From: Syntrophaceae bacterium UBA6109
GTDB lineage: Bacteria > Desulfobacterota > Syntrophia > Syntrophales > UBA6109
Reading direction: 5' to 3'
DNA: 7,764 nt
NCBI GenBank assembly: GCA_002428445.1
Contig: DIWJ01000061.1
Span: 1-7,764 of the forward strand
The notes beneath the pieces were generated by a model. That model had not been told where the DNA came from. It was given only the letters and a program-made list of their open reading frames with translations, and made no database searches. Of this stretch, positions 1 through 7,764 are shown piece by piece (within the stretch, counting starts at the first letter, position 1; each line of letters starts with the position of its first letter). The position numbers were made by a program, and so were the translations under genes.

Positions 1-474
1 GTAAACAACGCTCGATTTTCTTACATTTGGATCTTGAATATAAACATCTTCTTTCTGCGTCTTGGGAAGACCAGCGATATAGCCCAATAGCAGTTCCGCG
101 AGAAAAGTGTCATCCACGTGGCAGCTCTCCAAAACCGGTGCAAGTTCTGCTGCCAGCGGTTCCATCTCCCGTGCATGACGTAAAGCCTTTTTTATATCCC
201 AGCCCCGTCGTTGGTCACTCTTTTGTTTGCTCTCTATCAGCGTTTCAGCCCTGTTCGGTTCACGGACCGCCTTCTTCGCCCAACCGTCATATGGCTTCCA
301 ACGACGGCAAAACATTGCGAGCGCTTTGGTCGGTGCAGTTTGTGCCATAGCGAAAATCTGATTACCCAGGAGCGATGGTGGCACTGCCCCGCCTCGGACG
401 TCAGCGCAGTAGCCAGCATGAACTACATCCGCTGCTGCCAGAAGTTGTCCAAGCTTGAATGCCGTTTCGTTCAT
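1..474 (-). CDS. cas11c: Putative Cas11c small subunit, translated from an internal start in cas8c
   Basis: An in-frame ATG within cas8c (474-472, Met579 of Cas8c) is preceded by AAGGAGGTG, a perfect 9-base match to the 16S anti-Shine-Dalgarno sequence, with a 3-base gap (TAC) to the ATG. The product begins MNETAFKLGQLLAAADVV and is open for 158 codons to the left edge. This is the predicted helical C-terminal part of Cas8c. Type I-C systems are known to make the small Cascade subunit Cas11 from such an internal start in cas8c, and several copies of it line the crRNA backbone. The codons supplying the ribosome site read Lys-Glu-Val-Tyr in Cas8c. The initiation site is seen directly; the separate product is inferred from the family. 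Confidence 0.65.
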   Translation of the reverse strand, partial: MNETAFKLGQLLAAADVVHAGYCADVRGGAVPPSLLGNQIFAMAQTAPTKALAMFCRRWKPYDGWAKKAVREPNRAETLIESKQKSDQRRGWDIKKALRHAREMEPLAAELAPVLESCHVDDTFLAELLLGYIAGLPKTQKEDVYIQDPNVRKSSVVY

Positions 475-2208
475 GTACACCTCCTTGTTTCGATAAAGTT
501 TATGTAATAGTACCCCAATAATTGTTATTGTCCGCAACGTCTCATGACGATCATAATCCTTTGCGAAATCAAAGCCGCGTCGTAATGCATGGGCCGTCCC
601 GGTGACAAGTGTCGCACGTCGTCTCAGCAACAGCCGTAGAACTCGTTTCACTCGATGACTCGCCGACAGATCGACATTTCCCACTGGATCGATAAAAAAT
701 CTCAGCGCTTCACCTGCAGGCAAACCGATTTTCTCTTTTTTCTTGCCGTTTGGACGCTTCCCGCTATGCAAGAAGATTTGCTTGCTGAAGTAAATCAATC
801 CCAGCGGGGCGACATGCGGTGGCGACATCCAATATGGCTCGCTCTCACCCTTTTTCCAGAGCGGTAATTTCAGCCACGGCGGCACATTTTTCTCACTCAC
901 GATCCATGTTGTTGCAGCGTCATAGAAGTCGGCGACTGTGGGTGCACTGGCATAGACGACTTTGTGATTGCCTTGCGAGAGCTTTCGAATAATCATCAAA
1001 TGCACGGGTGTTTTGCGCAGATCATTCATGACTCTTGCTTGCACAGTTTCGATCAATCTCTCGGTCCTTTTTTCAAAAACCGCAACTGAACTTGCTGAAT
1101 CGGTAACGGAGTTGGGTTCTTCTACAGACAAATCTTCTTCATTATCAGATAGGAGAGATACCGTTGGCACATCAAGAACTTCGTCAATGAATGCGAGGAA
1201 TAAGTCACTTTGTTTTGGAGCCTCTCCGGGGATTGCTCGCCATGTTTTACCCTTGCGGATTTCTGAAGTAAGAGCCCGGAGTGCGGCATCCAGGTGTTTT
1301 TCTGTCTCCACTCCCACGGGCATTGCCTCAGCGGAGAAACGACCATAGCGATCGTTGGCTGGAATCTCCTTATTTTTAGCGAACAGATATGTTTGACCCA
1401 ATCCCGCTGGTAGTTTAGGCTGATGGAAATTTCCGGTTAATAGTTGACTTTTTAAACCCGTCAACCCACAGATGCCCCACTTCTGATCTTGCATTTCATT
1501 ATCGCTGTAAGCCTGTAGCGCCTCGCTTACAGGTGCAATCAAACTTTGATCAGCAATCGATAAAGGAAATCCTGCTGCCTCAAAGAGCAAAGCACCATCA
1601 CATATCCATTTGTTTTTAAATTTCTTGCCTACCAACAGATCGACAGTGATTTTTGTCCAATCATCCTGTGCGGTTTGTCTAAGATTTTCAATGAGCGCTT
1701 TCGTCACGCCTTCTATCAACTGTTGGGGTGATTGACTGCAAGCGAGCAGGAAACGATCAATCGTAGCATACACCAAGGCTGCGTTTGTATTTTCAAGACT
1801 TCGGAGTTGCTTGTCTCGTTCGTGCAGTCGTTTTAAAAAAACTTCACTAGGCCAATCCTCGAAAGCATCAGAATCATATTGGGCATTGCCTACAAAAGAG
1901 AGCAGCACCTCCCTCCGTTCGTTCTTCTTCTTATCAAGGACCGTTTCTCTCCACTCTTCACCAACCGTGCAAGCCCAAAGAGGAAAGCTGGGTTGGACGA
2001 AGGGGAAACTATTGTGCTGGCCGTCTCGTAGCGTCCAAGGTGAAACTCTGGAGGAAACTGGCCGGATACATGTGATGTGTCCTTTTTCGTCAAGTTGCAC
2101 TAAAAGTGCTGATTTTCTTCCAGCATCTTTAACGTCCGGATGCCGCAGGGACTTCTTAATATCCTCCGGCGGTGCCCCGCGTTCGACGATAAGAAGTTCA
2201 TTTAGCAT
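1..2208 (-). CDS. cas8c: Cas8c/Csd1-like large subunit of type I-C Cascade (3' end beyond window)
   Basis: Translating the minus strand from the ATG at 2208-2206 gives 736 codons with no stop up to the left edge, so the C-terminus is missing. In type I-C, Cas8c is the large Cascade subunit that helps recognise the PAM and hold target DNA. The family call rests on four things: position directly after cas5, the N-terminal MLNELLIVERGAPPEDI, a central stretch GKTWRAIPGEAPKQSDLF at about 320-337, and a helical C-terminal part containing FKLGQLLA and ending near FLAELLLGY, which resembles the Csd1 C-terminus. An acidic, serine-rich probable linker sits at about 353-375. The start overlaps cas5 by 11 bases and is preceded by GGGAGGTG (2217-2224), which indicates coupled translation. 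The protein is long for Csd1 and the central region looks divergent. Codons are AT-richer than in the genes to the right. Confidence 0.8.
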   Translation of the reverse strand, partial: MLNELLIVERGAPPEDIKKSLRHPDVKDAGRKSALLVQLDEKGHITCIRPVSSRVSPWTLRDGQHNSFPFVQPSFPLWACTVGEEWRETVLDKKKNERREVLLSFVGNAQYDSDAFEDWPSEVFLKRLHERDKQLRSLENTNAALVYATIDRFLLACSQSPQQLIEGVTKALIENLRQTAQDDWTKITVDLLVGKKFKNKWICDGALLFEAAGFPLSIADQSLIAPVSEALQAYSDNEMQDQKWGICGLTGLKSQLLTGNFHQPKLPAGLGQTYLFAKNKEIPANDRYGRFSAEAMPVGVETEKHLDAALRALTSEIRKGKTWRAIPGEAPKQSDLFLAFIDEVLDVPTVSLLSDNEEDLSVEEPNSVTDSASSVAVFEKRTERLIETVQARVMNDLRKTPVHLMIIRKLSQGNHKVVYASAPTVADFYDAATTWIVSEKNVPPWLKLPLWKKGESEPYWMSPPHVAPLGLIYFSKQIFLHSGKRPNGKKKEKIGLPAGEALRFFIDPVGNVDLSASHRVKRVLRLLLRRRATLVTGTAHALRRGFDFAKDYDRHETLRTITIIGVLLHKLYRNKEVYMNETAFKLGQLLAAADVVHAGYCADVRGGAVPPSLLGNQIFAMAQTAPTKALAMFCRRWKPYDGWAKKAVREPNRAETLIESKQKSDQRRGWDIKKALRHAREMEPLAAELAPVLESCHVDDTFLAELLLGYIAGLPKTQKEDVYIQDPNVRKSSVVY
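478..486 (-). promoter_or_regulatory. Internal Shine-Dalgarno sequence within cas8c
   Basis: The minus strand reads AAGGAGGTG here, followed by TAC and the ATG at 474-472. Nine contiguous bases pair with the 3' end of 16S rRNA. This is a stronger ribosome site than those of most genes in the window, although it lies inside coding sequence, and it is the main support for an internally started Cas11c. Confidence 0.75.
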
Positions 2209-2902
2209 TTGTCTTCACCTCCCGTTCCATCACGGATAGCCACTCTTCCGGAATTTCGTATTTCAGAATACCACCTTCGATCTTTACATTCTGACGGAAT
2301 ACCGGTTCATATCGTCCGCTTAATGGGTTATTCCAAACACATAAAAGCATTGAAGGAATTTCCAGAGAAAAATCTGTATCTACTTCCGTCATTCCTTCAC
2401 GAAATGGCCCCCAGTATGAACAGGTAAACTCGCTCCATCCGAGGCAAGGAGTCCGGTAACATTGACCCCGCCTCAACCGTCGATCGAAAAGATCCTGCAA
2501 GTGATGCCGGGGGTTGTTTTCTCTTTTCCATTGAGAACTTACAGCAACACCATGCAGTCGATAACAAACGTCTTTCAGAATCGTGGCGAAAAGCTGCATA
2601 CTGCTGCCGCCCGGAGTGATTCCCTTATTGAACAAGTCACCCTTACGCAGTGGTCCTCCATAGTTTGTCGTATACCGTTGAAAATGCACCCGGCCACCGG
2701 TCTCGCCGTCACGCCGACAGATCTCGGCCTTTGTCGGGCAAATCCATGCCGCCCCGTCGGCAAAAAACGCAATCGACTCGAACAGACCCTTTGCGGCCGA
2801 CCAAGTCGGCACGGGGTAGCTCGTCGGAGTTCCTCCCGTATCAGGCCGCGCAAACATCGCCGCAGGTCCAGCTATTTCAAAAGAAACTTCATATTCACTC
2901 AT
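2198..2902 (-). CDS. cas5c: Type I-C CRISPR-associated protein Cas5 (Cas5c/Cas5d)
   Basis: This is a 234-residue protein of normal Cas5d length. The N-terminus has the RAMP-fold signature of the family: YEVSFEIAGPAAMFARPD (4-21), then SYPVPTWSAAKGLFESI (28-44). A second conserved block, RRLRRGQCYRTPCLGWSEF (141-159), matches the GQCFxRPYLGCREF region of Cas5d. In type I-C, Cas5 both cleaves pre-crRNA in place of Cas6 and caps the 5' handle in Cascade. Compared from memory with the Bacillus halodurans enzyme (Tyr46, Lys116, His117), the tyrosine position is Ala45 here and the Lys-His pair falls in Pro-Arg-His-His (131-134), so nuclease activity is uncertain. The start is supported by GGAGG (2910-2914). 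It overlaps cas8c by 11 bases. No cas3 is seen upstream. Confidence 0.88.
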   Translation of the reverse strand: MSEYEVSFEIAGPAAMFARPDTGGTPTSYPVPTWSAAKGLFESIAFFADGAAWICPTKAEICRRDGETGGRVHFQRYTTNYGGPLRKGDLFNKGITPGGSSMQLFATILKDVCYRLHGVAVSSQWKRENNPRHHLQDLFDRRLRRGQCYRTPCLGWSEFTCSYWGPFREGMTEVDTDFSLEIPSMLLCVWNNPLSGRYEPVFRQNVKIEGGILKYEIPEEWLSVMEREVKTNAK

Positions 2903-2909
2903 ATGCCAA

Positions 2910-2914
2910 CCTCC
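2910..2914 (-). promoter_or_regulatory. Ribosome binding site of cas5
   Basis: The minus strand carries GGAGG 7 bases before the ATG at 2902-2900. This fixes the cas5 start, since no better placed start is visible. No convincing promoter was found further upstream on this strand. Confidence 0.65.
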
Positions 2915-3172
2915 ATCGAATATTCCTCAAGACTCGTCGCATACGGAGAGGATGCCACCGTACTCTACACCGATATCTAAAGACGGACTCCATCTCGCCA
3001 GCCATGCTCCACCGTCTTTGTTTCGACTCCAATTCTTCGCTACGGCTTGACCGCCGGGGCCAGCAGTTGCCGGATGGTATGGAAGATTCCTTTGACATTC
3101 CGATCTGGAATCTCAAAGACTTTGCTTTTGGAATTGCCCTGTTTTCGTGGACACGACTGGTGCCGAAAGACA

Positions 3173-3201
3173 CTGGACTCCCGCTTTCGCGGGAGTGACA
3201 C
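3173..3201 (+). repeat. Palindromic repeat, family B, copy 1
   Basis: An 8-base stem ACTCCCGC/GCGGGAGT (3177-3184 with 3189-3196) closes on a TTTC loop and is followed by GACAC. The full 29 bases recur identically at 3568-3596. It resembles REP-type intergenic palindromes. It could form a hairpin in RNA but lacks a following T-tract, so a terminator role is not supported. Confidence 0.85.
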
Positions 3202-3206
3202 AGAGA

Positions 3207-3237
3207 GATTGCCACGGCCCTGCGGGCCTCGCATGAC
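3207..3237 (+). repeat. Interspersed repeat, family A, copy 1
   Basis: It runs from GATTGCC to CATGAC with an inner palindromic GGCCCTGCGGGCC. It belongs to a family with the layout GATTGCCRCG, a variable hairpin, then CTCGCRATGAC, seen several times in both spacers of this window. It sits five bases after a family B copy. Confidence 0.75.
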
Positions 3238-3251
3238 AGGAGCAAAAGCAA

Positions 3252-3283
3252 AAATCGCCGCGGTTTTCGTACTTCGCGATGAC
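3252..3283 (+). repeat. Interspersed repeat, family A, copy 2 (diverged)
   Basis: It begins AAATCGCCGCGG and ends CTTCGCGATGAC, matching the family A ends with several changes. It lies 14 bases after copy 1 in the same orientation. Confidence 0.55.
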
Positions 3284-3474
3284 AACGCGTGAACAGGACC
3301 GGCCATTGACGGTGCCTCGGCAGGTTATGGTTGGATGAAAACGAATGACGTACAGACAGGTGTAGAAAGGACTAGAAATTGATTAAATCTTTCGGTGGGA
3401 GCTGTCAAGAGTTTTCCCGATGGAACGCGGTCGAAATGTCTTGGAGAAATCTGTCTGCTCTCGCAAAAGGACGA

Positions 3475-3507
3475 GATTGCCGCGTCGCTAACGCTCCTCG
3501 CAATGAC
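3475..3507 (+). repeat. Interspersed repeat, family A, copy 3
   Basis: This is the most typical copy: GATTGCCGCGTCGC, then the GCTAACGCTC centre, then CTCGCAATGAC. Such sequences are common between genes in anaerobic deltaproteobacteria (recalled, not searched). Confidence 0.8.
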
Positions 3508-3520
3508 TACAGGCAGGCGA

Positions 3521-3552
3521 GATTGCCACGGCCCCTCCGGGCATCGCATGAC
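3521..3552 (+). repeat. Interspersed repeat, family A, copy 4
   Basis: GATTGCCACGGCCC, a CTCCGGGC centre and TCGCATGAC. It starts 13 bases after copy 3 in the same orientation and shares GATTGCCACGGCCC with copy 1. Confidence 0.8.
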
Positions 3553-3567
3553 AAACAGAAACAGATC

Positions 3568-3596
3568 CTGGACTCCCGCTTTCGCGGGAGTGACAC
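3568..3596 (+). repeat. Palindromic repeat, family B, copy 2
   Basis: Identical over 29 bases to the copy at 3173-3201, with the stem at 3572-3579 and 3584-3591. It lies between two family A copies, which repeats the A/B alternation. Confidence 0.85.
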
Positions 3597-3609
3597 GGTG
3601 AGGCGAAGA

Positions 3610-3646
3610 GATCGCTACGTCGGCCTTTCGGCCTCCTCGCGATGAC
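3610..3646 (+). repeat. Interspersed repeat, family A, copy 5
   Basis: GATCGCTACGTC, an inner palindrome GGCCTTTCGGCC, then CTCGCGATGAC. The copy is diverged at the left end but keeps the hairpin plan. Confidence 0.7.
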
Positions 3647-3660
3647 AGAGGAAAATCCGG

Positions 3661-3684
3661 CTTCCCGCCTGCGCGGAAACGACC
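3661..3684 (+). repeat. Palindromic repeat, family B, degenerate copy
   Basis: CTTCCCGCCTGCGCGGAAACG keeps the CCGC/GCGG core and the position of the family's GAC end, but the stem is imperfect. It follows family A copy 5 by 14 bases. Confidence 0.5.
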
Positions 3685-3783
3685 GGATCGGCCATGAAAA
3701 TCTCTTGACAGACCGGCCGCATCTGTCGGACGGTACGGCAGCCCCGGCGCCGGGATGCATCCATCCGGCGGCGGCTTTGAACT

Positions 3784-5355
3784 ATGACAAAACGAACGTC
3801 CGCATCCCCGCAGGAAATCGACCTGAATCCCCAGTTCCGGAGGGCCTTGGAGCTGATGGAGGAAACGGACCGGAACGTCTTCGTCACGGGACGGGCGGGG
3901 ACGGGGAAATCCACGCTGCTCGGCCATTTCCGCCGGACCACGAAAAAAACCGCCGTCGTCCTGGCCCCGACGGGCGTCGCCGCCGTCAACATCGGCGGGC
4001 AGACGATCCATTCCTTCTTCGGCTTCAAGCCCGACGTCACGCCCGCCGGGATTCGCAAGAAGATCAGGAACGATGCACAAAACCTCTACCGGAAATTGCG
4101 GACGATCGTCATCGACGAAATTTCGATGGTGCGAGCGGACCTGCTGGATTCCGTCGACCGCTTTCTGCGGCTCAACGGCCCCGACGGGAAACTGCCCTTC
4201 GGCGGCGTCCAGATGATTCTCATCGGCGACCTCTACCAGCTCCCTCCGGTCGTGACGGGTACCGAGCGGGAGATCTTCCGCAGCCGTTACGCGAGCCCCT
4301 ACTTCTTCAGCGCCGAGTCCTTCCCGGGCCTGGATGCGGCCTTCGTCGAACTGGAAAAGGTCTACAGGCAGAAAGACGGCGAGTTCGTCCGCCTGCTCAA
4401 CGCCATCCGCAACCGCACCGCGACGGAAGCGGATCTCGCGCTCCTCAACAGCCGCTGCGAGCCGAGCTTCGCGCCGCCTGAGCAGGGCTGCTACATCCAT
4501 CTGACGAGCACGAACGCCATGGCCGACGCCGTCAACGAGGAACGGCTGGCCCGCCTGCCCGGACGCTTCCGGACGTCCCGGGGCCTGGTCGAGGGCGACT
4601 TCGGACCCGAGTATCTTCCGACGGCGCTGGAGCTGAAGCTGAAAAAGGGCGCGCAGATCATGCTCCTGAACAATGACGCCGCCGGACGCTGGATCAACGG
4701 CACCATCGGGATCCTGAAAGGGTTCTCCCGCGATGAAGAGGGCCGCGATCTGGTCAAGGCGAAACTCGACACGGGGGAGACGGTGGAGATCGAGCCTTAC
4801 ACCTGGCGGATCTACCGCTTTTTCCTGAAGGACGGGGAGATCGCATCCGAGGCGGTCGGGTCCTTTACGCAGTTTCCGATCCGCCCGGCCTTTGCCGTCA
4901 CGATCCACAAGAGCCAGGGAAAGACCTTCGAGCGGGTCGTCGTTGATGTCGGCCGGGGGACCTTCGCCCACGGCCAGATGTACGTCGCCCTCTCCCGCTG
5001 CACGACGCTGGAGGGCATCGTCCTGAAGAAGCCTCTCGAATTGAGCCACGTCCTCATGGACTGGCGGGTGGTGAAATTCCTGACCGGCTTCCAGTACCGC
5101 GAGGCGGAAGCGGCCTGCCCGAGGGAGGAACGGCTGCGCCTCCTCGATGAAGCCGTCCGCAACGGGCGGACCGTCGAGATCCTCTACCTCAAGTCACGCG
5201 ACGAAAAGAGCCGGCGCGTCGTCCGCCCGCTGGCCGTCGGGCAGATGGAATTCAAGGGCCATCCCTTCCTGGGCCTTTCCGCCTTCTGCACGGAGCGCCG
5301 CGACAAACGCGTCTTCAACGTGGACAAGATCCTCGAAATCAGGGAAATTCCGTAA
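3784..5355 (+). CDS. Pif1/RecD-like superfamily 1 DNA helicase with C-terminal WYL-type domain
   Basis: This 523-residue protein has a full SF1B helicase core: Walker A GRAGTGKST (36-44), APTGVAA (61-67), Walker B VIDEISM (109-115), motif III GDLYQLPP (148-155), GAQIMLLNND (289-298), TIHKSQGKTFERVVVD (373-388) and YVALSRCTTLEG (400-411). Pif1-type enzymes use ATP to unwind DNA 5'-3', including structured DNA and R-loops. Residues of about 449-521 (RLRLLDEAVRNGRTVEILY onward) look like a WYL domain, a ligand- or nucleic-acid-sensing module often found in regulators. The ATG is the first start after an in-frame TGA at 3778; the ribosome site is weak (GGCGG). It is GC-rich like the genes to its right. 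It appears monocistronic, with repeats on both sides, and is divergent from cas5. A role in CRISPR function is not supported beyond proximity. Confidence 0.85.
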   Translation: MTKRTSASPQEIDLNPQFRRALELMEETDRNVFVTGRAGTGKSTLLGHFRRTTKKTAVVLAPTGVAAVNIGGQTIHSFFGFKPDVTPAGIRKKIRNDAQNLYRKLRTIVIDEISMVRADLLDSVDRFLRLNGPDGKLPFGGVQMILIGDLYQLPPVVTGTEREIFRSRYASPYFFSAESFPGLDAAFVELEKVYRQKDGEFVRLLNAIRNRTATEADLALLNSRCEPSFAPPEQGCYIHLTSTNAMADAVNEERLARLPGRFRTSRGLVEGDFGPEYLPTALELKLKKGAQIMLLNNDAAGRWINGTIGILKGFSRDEEGRDLVKAKLDTGETVEIEPYTWRIYRFFLKDGEIASEAVGSFTQFPIRPAFAVTIHKSQGKTFERVVVDVGRGTFAHGQMYVALSRCTTLEGIVLKKPLELSHVLMDWRVVKFLTGFQYREAEAACPREERLRLLDEAVRNGRTVEILYLKSRDEKSRRVVRPLAVGQMEFKGHPFLGLSAFCTERRDKRVFNVDKILEIREIP

Positions 5356-5427
5356 CCGCCGCAGCGAGTTCGCTTCCGACAGCAGATGGTTTCGTTCCGC
5401 TCGCAAGAACAACGATCATGTCACGCG

Positions 5428-5452
5428 TCATCCCCGCCTGCGCGGGGACCCA
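5428..5452 (-). repeat. Palindromic repeat, family B, inverted copy
   Basis: GTCATCCCCGCCTGCGCGGGG has a 7-base stem TCCCCGC/GCGGGGA (5431-5437 with 5442-5448). The GTCA end is on the left, so it is oriented opposite to the copies before the helicase. Confidence 0.75.
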
Positions 5453-5583
5453 ACGGCAAGAAACTCCGTCTGCTTTTCGATTGCCTTGTCGTCCCCTCTA
5501 TGTTGAAAAGCACGTTGGACCTGCGTAGGCGGGGACCCGGCTCTCTGCTCAGCACGTAAGTCACGGAACAAACTCAGGGCACT

Positions 5584-5608
5584 GGATTCCCGCATGCGCG
5601 GGAATGAC
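5584..5608 (+). repeat. Palindromic repeat, family B, copy
   Basis: It has an 8-base stem ATTCCCGC/GCGGGAAT (5586-5593 with 5598-5605) around ATGC, followed by GAC as in the other copies. The stem differs from that of copies 1 and 2 by a compensated change (ACT/AGT to ATT/AAT), so the palindrome is preserved. Confidence 0.8.
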
Positions 5609-5626
5609 TGCAAGAATCAATAAGCG

Positions 5627-5682
5627 GTCATTGCGGGGAGCCCTCGTCGGGGCTCAGGATGAACTCCACGACGCGGCAATCC
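5627..5682 (-). repeat. Interspersed repeat, family A, inverted and expanded copy
   Basis: GTCATTGCGGGGAGCC at the left and GACGCGGCAATCC at the right are the reversed family A ends. The 56-base unit has a longer centre than the other copies, including AGCCCTCGTCGGGGCT. Confidence 0.65.
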
Positions 5683-5696
5683 AGTCCTTAAATGCA

Positions 5697-5721
5697 GATT
5701 GCCGCGCTTTGCTCGCATGAC
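5697..5721 (+). repeat. Interspersed repeat, family A, short copy
   Basis: GATTGCCGCG, a short CTTTG centre, then CTCGCATGAC. It lies 14 bases after the inverted copy, giving a head-to-head pair. Confidence 0.7.
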
Positions 5722-5851
5722 AAACAGGCGGCCGTTGATGTATCCGGCCGGGGGCGATTCTCCCCGCTGCCGGGGGTGAGGCGCCCCCTGTCCCGCCTGA
5801 AACGCCCTCTCTTATTCCCTTGAGTTCCGTCATATCAACAGGTTGCATTTG

Positions 5852-5925: not shown

Positions 5926-6768
5926 ATGGGGAACCAACCCTGCAACATCTACGATCCCCGCCCCGTTTCCATCGCCCGGACGCTGCCCCAGATCGCAGAC
6001 CACCGTCTCTTCCAGCTCAAGCTTGAAGACGGAACCTCCTGGGACCAGTTCGGCCATCAGCCGGGGCAATTCATCGAAGTCTCCCTCTTCGGCAAGGGCG
6101 AGGCGCCGATCAGCATTTCGTCGCCGCCCACCCGGCCGGAAGCCCTTGAGATCTGTGTCCGCCGGGCCGGGAAACTCACCAACGGCCTTTTCGAACTGGG
6201 CAAGGGATCGGCCCTGCATATCCGGGGCCCCTACGGGCGCGGCTTTCCCGTGGAAACCTTCAAGGGGAAGAAACTCCTCCTGGTCGCCGGCGGGCTGGGC
6301 CTGGCGCCGCTGCGCTCGCTCCTTCTGTACGTCCTCGACCGGCGCAAGGAGTTCGACGAGCTGATCCTCATGTACGGGACCAACAACCCCGACAACGTCC
6401 TCTTCAAATACGAGCTCCTGAGCTTTTTCGACCGCAACGACATCCAGTACCTCTACAGCGTGGACCGCGACGAGGAAGGCATCTGGAAACAGTATGTGGG
6501 CGTGGTGACCGGCCTCTTCGACCGGGCGTCGCTCTCGCCGGCCGATACCTACGCCGTTCTCTGCGGTCCGCCCATCATGTACCGCTTCGTCCTGAAGCGT
6601 CTGCTCGAGCTGGGCTTCGCCAAGGACCACATCTATATGTCGCTGGAGCGGATGATGAAGTGCGGCGTCGGCAAGTGCGGCCACTGCGCGATCGGCGACA
6701 AGTACTGCTGCGTCGACGGGCCGGTCTTCTGCTACCCCGAACTCGAATCCATCAAGGAGGCGATCTGA
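5926..6768 (+). CDS. FAD/NAD(P)-binding oxidoreductase subunit with C-terminal iron-sulfur cluster
   Basis: This 280-residue protein of the ferredoxin-NADP reductase superfamily resembles the gamma (HydG-type) subunit of sulfhydrogenases, the sulfite reductase B subunit and PyrK. The FAD-binding half runs to about 110, with PGQFIEVSLFG (46-56), PISISSPP (61-68) and GPYGRGFP (101-108). The NAD(P)-binding half has LLLVAGGLGLAPLRSLL (117-133) and CGPPIMY (213-219). A cysteine cluster (C246, C251, C254, C261/C262, C269) should bind a [2Fe-2S] centre. Such subunits pass electrons between NAD(P)H and a partner enzyme. Its stop is two bases before the formate dehydrogenase ATG, so the two are cotranscribed and probably form one complex. 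It has no signal peptide and is presumably cytoplasmic. The true partner carrier (NAD, NADP or a heterodisulfide-reductase-like module) cannot be read from the sequence. Confidence 0.85.
   Translation: MGNQPCNIYDPRPVSIARTLPQIADHRLFQLKLEDGTSWDQFGHQPGQFIEVSLFGKGEAPISISSPPTRPEALEICVRRAGKLTNGLFELGKGSALHIRGPYGRGFPVETFKGKKLLLVAGGLGLAPLRSLLLYVLDRRKEFDELILMYGTNNPDNVLFKYELLSFFDRNDIQYLYSVDRDEEGIWKQYVGVVTGLFDRASLSPADTYAVLCGPPIMYRFVLKRLLELGFAKDHIYMSLERMMKCGVGKCGHCAIGDKYCCVDGPVFCYPELESIKEAI
6754..6760 (+). promoter_or_regulatory. Ribosome binding site of the formate dehydrogenase gene
   Basis: AAGGAGG within the last codons of the upstream gene sits 10 bases before ATG 6771, supporting this start and tight coupling of the two genes. 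Confidence 0.7.
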
Positions 6769-6770
6769 CC

Positions 6771-7764
6771 ATGGCCAGAACCCTTACCGTATGCCCCTTC
6801 TGCGGCTGCGGCTGCAACTTCTACCTCGTGACCGACGGGAACCGCATCGTCGGCGTGGAACCGTCACCGGGAAATCCGGTCAACCGCGGCACGCTCTGCG
6901 TCAAAGGATGGAACGCCCACGAATTCGTGTCCTCCCCCGACCGCCTGACAACGCCGCTCGTCAGGAAGGACGGCAAGCTGACGGAAGCCACCTGGGACGA
7001 GGCGCTGGATACCGTCGCCGCGCGGCTTCGGGAAATCCGCAACGCCTCGGGACCGCGGTCGGTCGCGTTCCTGTCCTCGGCGAAGGTCTCCAATGAAGAG
7101 AATTATCTGCTCATGAAGCTGGCGCGGGCGGCCCTCAAGACGAACAGCGTCGACCACTGCGCGCGCCTCTGACACAGCTCCACTGTGGTCGGTCTGGCCG
7201 CAACATTCGGGTCCGGCGCCATGACGAATTCCATCGGCGAATTCGAGGAGGCGGACCTCTTCTTCATCACGGGATCGAACACGACCGCTCAGCACCCGCT
7301 CATCGGCACGCGCATCCTCAACGCGAAGGAGCGCGGGGCGAAGATCGTTCTTCTGGACCCGCGCGCCATCCAGCTGGCGCGTTTCGCCGATCTCCATCTG
7401 CGCCAGAACATCGGCACGGACGTGGCCGTTCTCAACGCGATGATGAACGTCATCATCGCCGAGGAGCTCTACGACAAGGCTTTCGTCGAAACGAGAACCG
7501 AGGGCTTCGACAAACTCAAGGCCGTCGTCGCCCGCTACAGCCCCCGGGTGGCTGAAACGATTTCGGGAATTCCGGCGAAGGACATCGAGGAGGCGGCGCG
7601 CCTCTATGCCAAGTCCGACAAGGCGATGATCGTCTACGCGATGGGCATCACCCAGCACACGACGGGCGTGGACAACGTCAAGACGCTGGCGAATCTGGCC
7701 ATGCTGACGGGACACGTGGGAAGACCCTCCACCGGCGTGAACCCGCTCCGCGGCCAGAACAACG
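6771..7764 (+). CDS. fdhA: Formate dehydrogenase catalytic subunit, selenocysteine-containing (3' end beyond window)
   Basis: It encodes the molybdopterin (Mo/W-bis-MGD) subunit that interconverts formate and CO2. The N-terminus binds a [4Fe-4S] cluster through C8, C11, C15 and C43 (CPFCGCGC, then GTLCVKG). The frame meets TGA at 7170-7172 (codon 134) in the context SVDHCARL-U-HSS, which matches the E. coli FdhF site CCARV-U-H; the following His is conserved. After it, the frame continues for 197 codons with clear family sequence: GSGAMTNSIGEFEEADLFFI, ITGSNTTAQHPL, VLLDPRA, MLTGHVGRPSTGVNPLRGQN. The TGA is therefore read as selenocysteine, not as a stop or a mutation. About 331 codons are present, roughly half of a usual 680-720 residue subunit. 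No twin-arginine signal is seen, so it is cytoplasmic. The start is supported by AAGGAGG at 6754-6760. Confidence 0.93.
7173..7200 (+). promoter_or_regulatory. Candidate bacterial SECIS element after the UGA codon
   Basis: A GGTC (7187-7190) lies 14 bases after the UGA, near the distance of the SelB-binding GGUC loop in E. coli fdhF. A short stem can be drawn: CC (7180-7181) with GG (7196-7197), two bulged bases, then ACT (7182-7184) with GGT (7191-7193). It closes on a loop ending in GGTC. The helix is weak by eye, and selA, selB and selC are not in this window. Confidence 0.5.

Follow-up and report, generated by a model that had tools for sequence, protein, structure and literature searches.

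The window, that is, the whole stretch of 7,764 nt analyzed here, contains part of a cas operon on the minus strand. The gene for a divergent type I-C-like large subunit, cas8c (1..2208, minus strand), is cut by the window end, with 736 of 740 codons inside (the full protein, P0001, consists of 740 amino acids), and its start overlaps by 11 nt the cas5 gene (Cas5c-like; 2198..2902, minus strand). Both genes are preceded by a GGAGG motif on the same strand, the one for cas8c located in the end of cas5 (2218..2222) and the one for cas5 at 2910..2914. Because the window ends inside cas8c, Cas5c is the only one of Cas5c, Cas7c, Cas3 and the adaptation proteins to be seen in it. On the opposite strand, the cas operon is adjoined by a gene (3784-5355, plus strand) for a RecD-like helicase of 523 residues, whose C-terminus (residues 446-521) is WYL-like, and several short palindromic stretches of the CCCGCTTTCGCGGGAGTGACA type, perhaps dispersed intergenic repeats, are found between genes at 2920-3780 and 5360-5760. 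Farther along, at 6771-7763 (plus strand), matches to formate dehydrogenase alpha (TIGR01591) lie on both sides of an in-frame TGA (7171-7173), with model positions 1-128 upstream and 135-326 downstream, so that this TGA is probably a selenocysteine codon.

Inspection of the letters of the minus strand within cas8c yields ...CGAAAC AAGGAGGTG TAC ATG AACGAAACG..., in agreement with the earlier note, which had reported AAGGAGGTG-TAC-ATG in the cas8c frame. The putative internal Shine-Dalgarno sequence AAGGAGGTG (478..486) covers the codons Lys575-Glu576-Val577, the spacer codon TAC occupies 475..477, and the ATG lies at 472..474; the span of 475..490 originally given for the feature thus includes the 9-mer and the spacer, with the ATG just outside. 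The spacing to the ATG is 3 nt from the 9-mer and 5 nt from GGAGG. This ATG, codon 579 in the cas8c frame starting at 2208, would be Met1 of Cas11c, the predicted small subunit, an assignment that is backed by the conservation of the Met. The putative cas11c frame (1..474, minus strand; 158 of 162 codons in the window), for which the predicted fold speaks as well, would encode a protein of 162 residues, 17.9 kDa and pI 8.8, close to the length of about 160 residues anticipated in the earlier note.

The exact 9-mer occurs once in the window compared with 0.04 expected occurrences, and was found in 9 of 200 shuffled sequences. The looser motif GGAGG-N4..9-ATG is present four times, with 1.65 matches expected; the four are the internal site, the gene starts of cas8c and of cas5, and what is probably the start of a gene at 5926. 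The rarity of the motif alone is insufficient because 23 of the 200 shuffles reach at least four such matches; hence the original argument that the site is unlikely to arise by chance is suggestive rather than decisive. Rarity within the window was accordingly rejected as sufficient proof, the decisive evidence being conservation. A fortuitous Shine-Dalgarno-like sequence, for which the expectation of 1.65 looser matches per window might speak, is refuted by the finding that the site is conserved among both the 23 divergent and the 29 classical genes (see below), and its probability appears negligible. The predicted strength of the site is considerable: pairing of the 9-mer with the anti-Shine-Dalgarno sequence (-12.7 kcal/mol) is the best among the 42 in-frame ATG, GTG and TTG codons of the window cas8c and exceeds that at the gene starts themselves (-11.6 kcal/mol for cas8c and -10.0 kcal/mol for cas5), and the mRNA at the internal ATG is the most open among the nine in-frame ATGs tested in this gene. 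Across the 23 divergent genes, these measures are less uniform, with the internal site being the best-pairing in-frame ATG in 15 and the second best in 7; the mRNA at the site is more open than at the median ATG in 17 genes, equally open in three and less so in another three.

The assignment of the large subunit to Cas8c, made in the earlier note, depends on the method. The PADLOC model PDLC01562 identifies the window protein as Cas8c (5e-125) and the predicted fold is that of Cas8c, whereas by sequence the NCBIfam equivalog TIGR01863 (Cas8c/Csd1) does not recognize it (11.3 bits, the cut-off being 218.65), nor does it recognize any of the six relatives tested, the best of which scores 17 bits. 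In Pfam, there is no family for either Cas8c or the fragment. Searches of solved structures by sequence, whether with the protein, the 49-row profile or the fragment profile, returned no Cas8c, so that a comparison of folds was needed. The model of the fragment is a helical bundle of high confidence (pLDDT 91.5), except for a low-confidence tail of the last 18 residues (pLDDT 58-59). In VIA-align, the top ten entries for this model all come from type I-C Cascade, with small-subunit and Cas8c chains in the lead; the Foldseek result is weak on its own. Thus, the comparison of the predicted structure with Cas11c that the earlier note had suggested gave the helical bundle expected of a small subunit.

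At the protein level, the site is strongly conserved. In an alignment of 49 proteins, drawn from a listing of 120 out of 191 homologues, residue 579 is Met in 48, the sole exception being P0063 with Leu, and the flanking residues Lys575, Glu576 and Tyr578 are retained in 41, 45 and 49 proteins, respectively. Such conservation was rejected as proof of a ribosome site, given that it does not separate constraint on the protein from constraint on the RNA. Indeed, Lys-Glu-x-Tyr-Met might be kept for the sake of the protein alone, with the likeness to a Shine-Dalgarno sequence being a by-product of the Lys-Glu codons, and the invariance of Tyr578, the near invariance of Glu576 and the conservation of the helix that follows the site would all be compatible with this. 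Because the conservation of Met, Lys and Glu may reflect protein constraint, the DNA of relatives was compared. A scan of genome contigs yielded just two loci, and therefore, whole genomes were searched; at an E-value of 1e-20, relatives were detected in 10 of 395, 2 of 385, 7 of 242, 5 of 193 and 3 of 82 genomes of overlapping groups, and none in the plasmids and viral contigs searched. The resulting set consists of 23 distinct cas8c genes including that of the window, after removal of second copies of genes already in the set (L003, L004, L014, L015, L023 and L024) and of L026, a partial contig of another genome with the same site as L025 that would add one more AAGGAG.

The internal start is ATG in all 23 genes. 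Lys-Glu is present at the site in 20 of these and is encoded by AAG-GAG in 19, compared with 19 of the 114 Lys-Glu pairs that these genes contain at other positions, and with 2.9 expected from the codon use of each gene (P about 1e-16 under independence, an assumption that related genes violate). With one representative per cluster, AAG-GAG is found in 8 of 9 genes at 50% identity (1.64 expected) and in 6 of 6 at 40% identity (1.12 expected). When 185 columns are scored for codon constraint in excess of codon use, Lys575 comes first (6e-8) and Glu576 second (2e-6), followed by Asn3 (1e-3). There are few exceptions: in L006, AAGGAG is shifted by one base toward the ATG such that Glu is replaced by Gly and the ribosome site is retained, and the remaining exceptions carry GGGGA (L016 and L029) or AAGGAA (L021). 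Codon comparison across these relatives indicates that the site is held at the RNA level; thus, when homologues are aligned, as had been proposed, both the Met and the site prove to be kept, and the site codons are the most constrained of all columns. A purely protein-level origin of the motif is highly improbable considering that the synonymous choice of AAG-GAG far exceeds the expectation from codon use, that L006 alters the residue and yet retains the motif, and that the classical relatives considered next alter the residues and mostly retain the motif.

Within the phylum of G001, 41 of 247 genomes had a match to classical Cas8c as defined by TIGR01863. A total of 30 loci were retrieved, and 29 genes entered the alignment, L055 being excluded because it was not among the hits at 1e-5 of a phmmer search with L030 as the query (L049 and L044 were omitted from the C-terminal profile comparison only). 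In 26 of the 29 genes, GGAG precedes ATG or GTG at the aligned position, often in the register AAG-GAG-NNN-NNN-ATG, and the other three contain AGGA or GGGGA, all this on top of residues that differ widely among the genes. The start position is occupied by ATG in 19 and GTG in 9 genes, with L059 having ATG one codon earlier; the total of 29 of 29 allows slack, in that the start codon was sought first at the aligned position, next one codon ahead of it and finally one codon behind. All nine Val residues at the start position are encoded by GTG, a count drawn from the unfiltered listing because the filtered one admitted no Val codon except GTG, and this uniformity further argues against selection for the protein alone. 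In the classical set, the Glu codon of the internal site ranks fourth among 246 columns by codon constraint, behind three columns located at the frames' 5' end, in what is apparently the start region of the gene itself. The numbers of other ATGs with GGAG (12 of 282 in the divergent and 30 of 249 in the classical genes) are unsuitable as a control because stop-to-stop frames can include the own starts of the genes. Profile comparison aligns the C-terminal segments of the two lineages (probability 96.6, E 5e-10), and at full length (E 3e-15), KETYM of L001 falls opposite KELNM of L030; because the profiles align there, the internal start position is considered homologous in both lineages. The site thus lies, as the earlier note had placed it, where type I-C systems start Cas11c, and it probably predates the split between the window's lineage and classical type I-C.

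A strong Shine-Dalgarno sequence within a gene might slow ribosomes, and the site could act by slowing or pausing elongation between two domains of Cas8c without any separate product, which would be consistent with the predicted location of Met579 in a loop preceding the C-terminal bundle. Pausing would not require a start codon, yet every divergent gene has ATG, and every classical one has ATG or GTG in the aligned position or adjacent to it; moreover, a small subunit from the matching part of Desulfovibrio vulgaris Cas8c is present in the solved complex, as described in the covered sections of the structural report. Pausing therefore seems even less probable than the protein-only origin.

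In the seven relatives compared (L001, L002 and L060-L064), the gene order is cas5-cas8c-cas7-cas3, with cas4 and cas1 behind cas3 in five and neither gene within the stretch examined of L002 and L062, in contrast to the order cas3-cas5-cas8c-cas7-cas4-cas1 in all five classical loci (L065-L069). In L001, the best PADLOC models are Cas5c, Cas3c, Cas4c and Cas1c, Cas7 being recognized by a model labeled Cas7b for I-B and I-C, and relatives of the L001 Cas proteins are present in the other six loci. In the window, the five frames tested in the interval 2650-5355 gave no match to any Cas3 model, which fits the order of the relatives on the upstream side. The position of cas3 possibly marks a separate I-C variant. 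Besides the full cas3 behind cas7, L001 encodes a 180-residue Cas3 HD fragment directly before cas5 (L001:6769-7311); of the five classical upstream Cas3 proteins, two match this fragment with a better E-value than that of their match to the downstream cas3 of L001, so that the fragment may be a relic of classical cas3. The same locus contains the 5' part of cas4 twice, on either side of an unrelated 353-residue frame (L001:13634-16140), as if an insertion had occurred with duplication.

Taken together, the site, its conservation at the RNA level, the conservation of the start codon, the predicted fold and the positional homology with classical Cas8c support double translation, and it is very likely that the ribosome-binding site within cas8c and the start codon behind it are functional, such that one mRNA is translated into both Cas8c and Cas11c. 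Under this scenario, translation from the gene's own start would yield the full-length Cas8c (740 amino acids), and translation of the same mRNA from Met579 the small subunit (162 amino acids), which would be a repeat of the C-terminal helical bundle of Cas8c and, placed beside that bundle in Cascade, would hold the displaced DNA strand. The internally translated Cas11c predicted in the earlier note is in this way supported by codon conservation and the predicted fold; we infer the translation itself, together with the use of the site by ribosomes in this organism, the entry of the product into Cascade, its copy number and its job. More tentatively, and with somewhat less than an even chance, the window's lineage (PDLC01562) could be a distinct type I-C variant, with sequences beyond the reach of TIGR01863, cas3 moved behind cas7, a ribosome site inherited from the ancestor shared with classical type I-C, and a Cas11c that grew by about 40 residues, compared with that of D. 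vulgaris, in the window's branch. If so, the longer Cas11c could alter the number of small subunits in Cascade or the grip on the displaced strand. In practical terms, codon optimization of cas8c in a rebuilt Cascade, for example, for genome editing, would probably destroy the site and, with it, the small subunit, and the codon-constraint scan is a simple way to seek hidden small-subunit starts overlooked by gene callers.

The internal translation of Cas11c in type I-C is a published, known mechanism. According to the covered sections of O'Brien et al. 2020 (PMC7684278), the D. vulgaris type I-C Cascade contains two small subunits derived from Cas8c residues 489-612; the same text attributes the internal ribosome site, and its occurrence across I-B, I-C and I-D, to an earlier report, presumably McBride et al. 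2020, to which the covered part of PMC11899642 refers for it. The literature covered, including portions of PMC7684278, PMC12669027 and PMC11899642, does not name the window's lineage; this does not prove that the lineage has gone unreported, and the survey of McBride et al. 2020 lies outside this coverage. Like the predicted protein, D. vulgaris Cas11c (7kha, 8dex; covered text of PMC7684278) is an in-frame C-terminal segment of Cas8c, a helical bundle with an internal ribosome site, and residue 7 of the solved subunit aligns with residue 1 of the model. The two share 14% identity over 109-111 aligned residues and differ in length (162 amino acids predicted here compared with 124), the extra length being partly the low-confidence tail and partly an insertion before the long helix that is missing in more distant members of the window's lineage. 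Cas11b from cas8b (type I-B) and Cas11d from cas10d (type I-D) are also produced by internal in-frame translation, as stated in the covered part of PMC11899642, but from large subunits of other families. Another close parallel is with the classical TIGR01863 cas8c genes, most of which share the GGAG core before the start codon; to these, the present locus adds a clear example from a divergent Cas8c lineage that the NCBI model fails to recognize and in which cas3 lies behind cas7 in the relatives examined.
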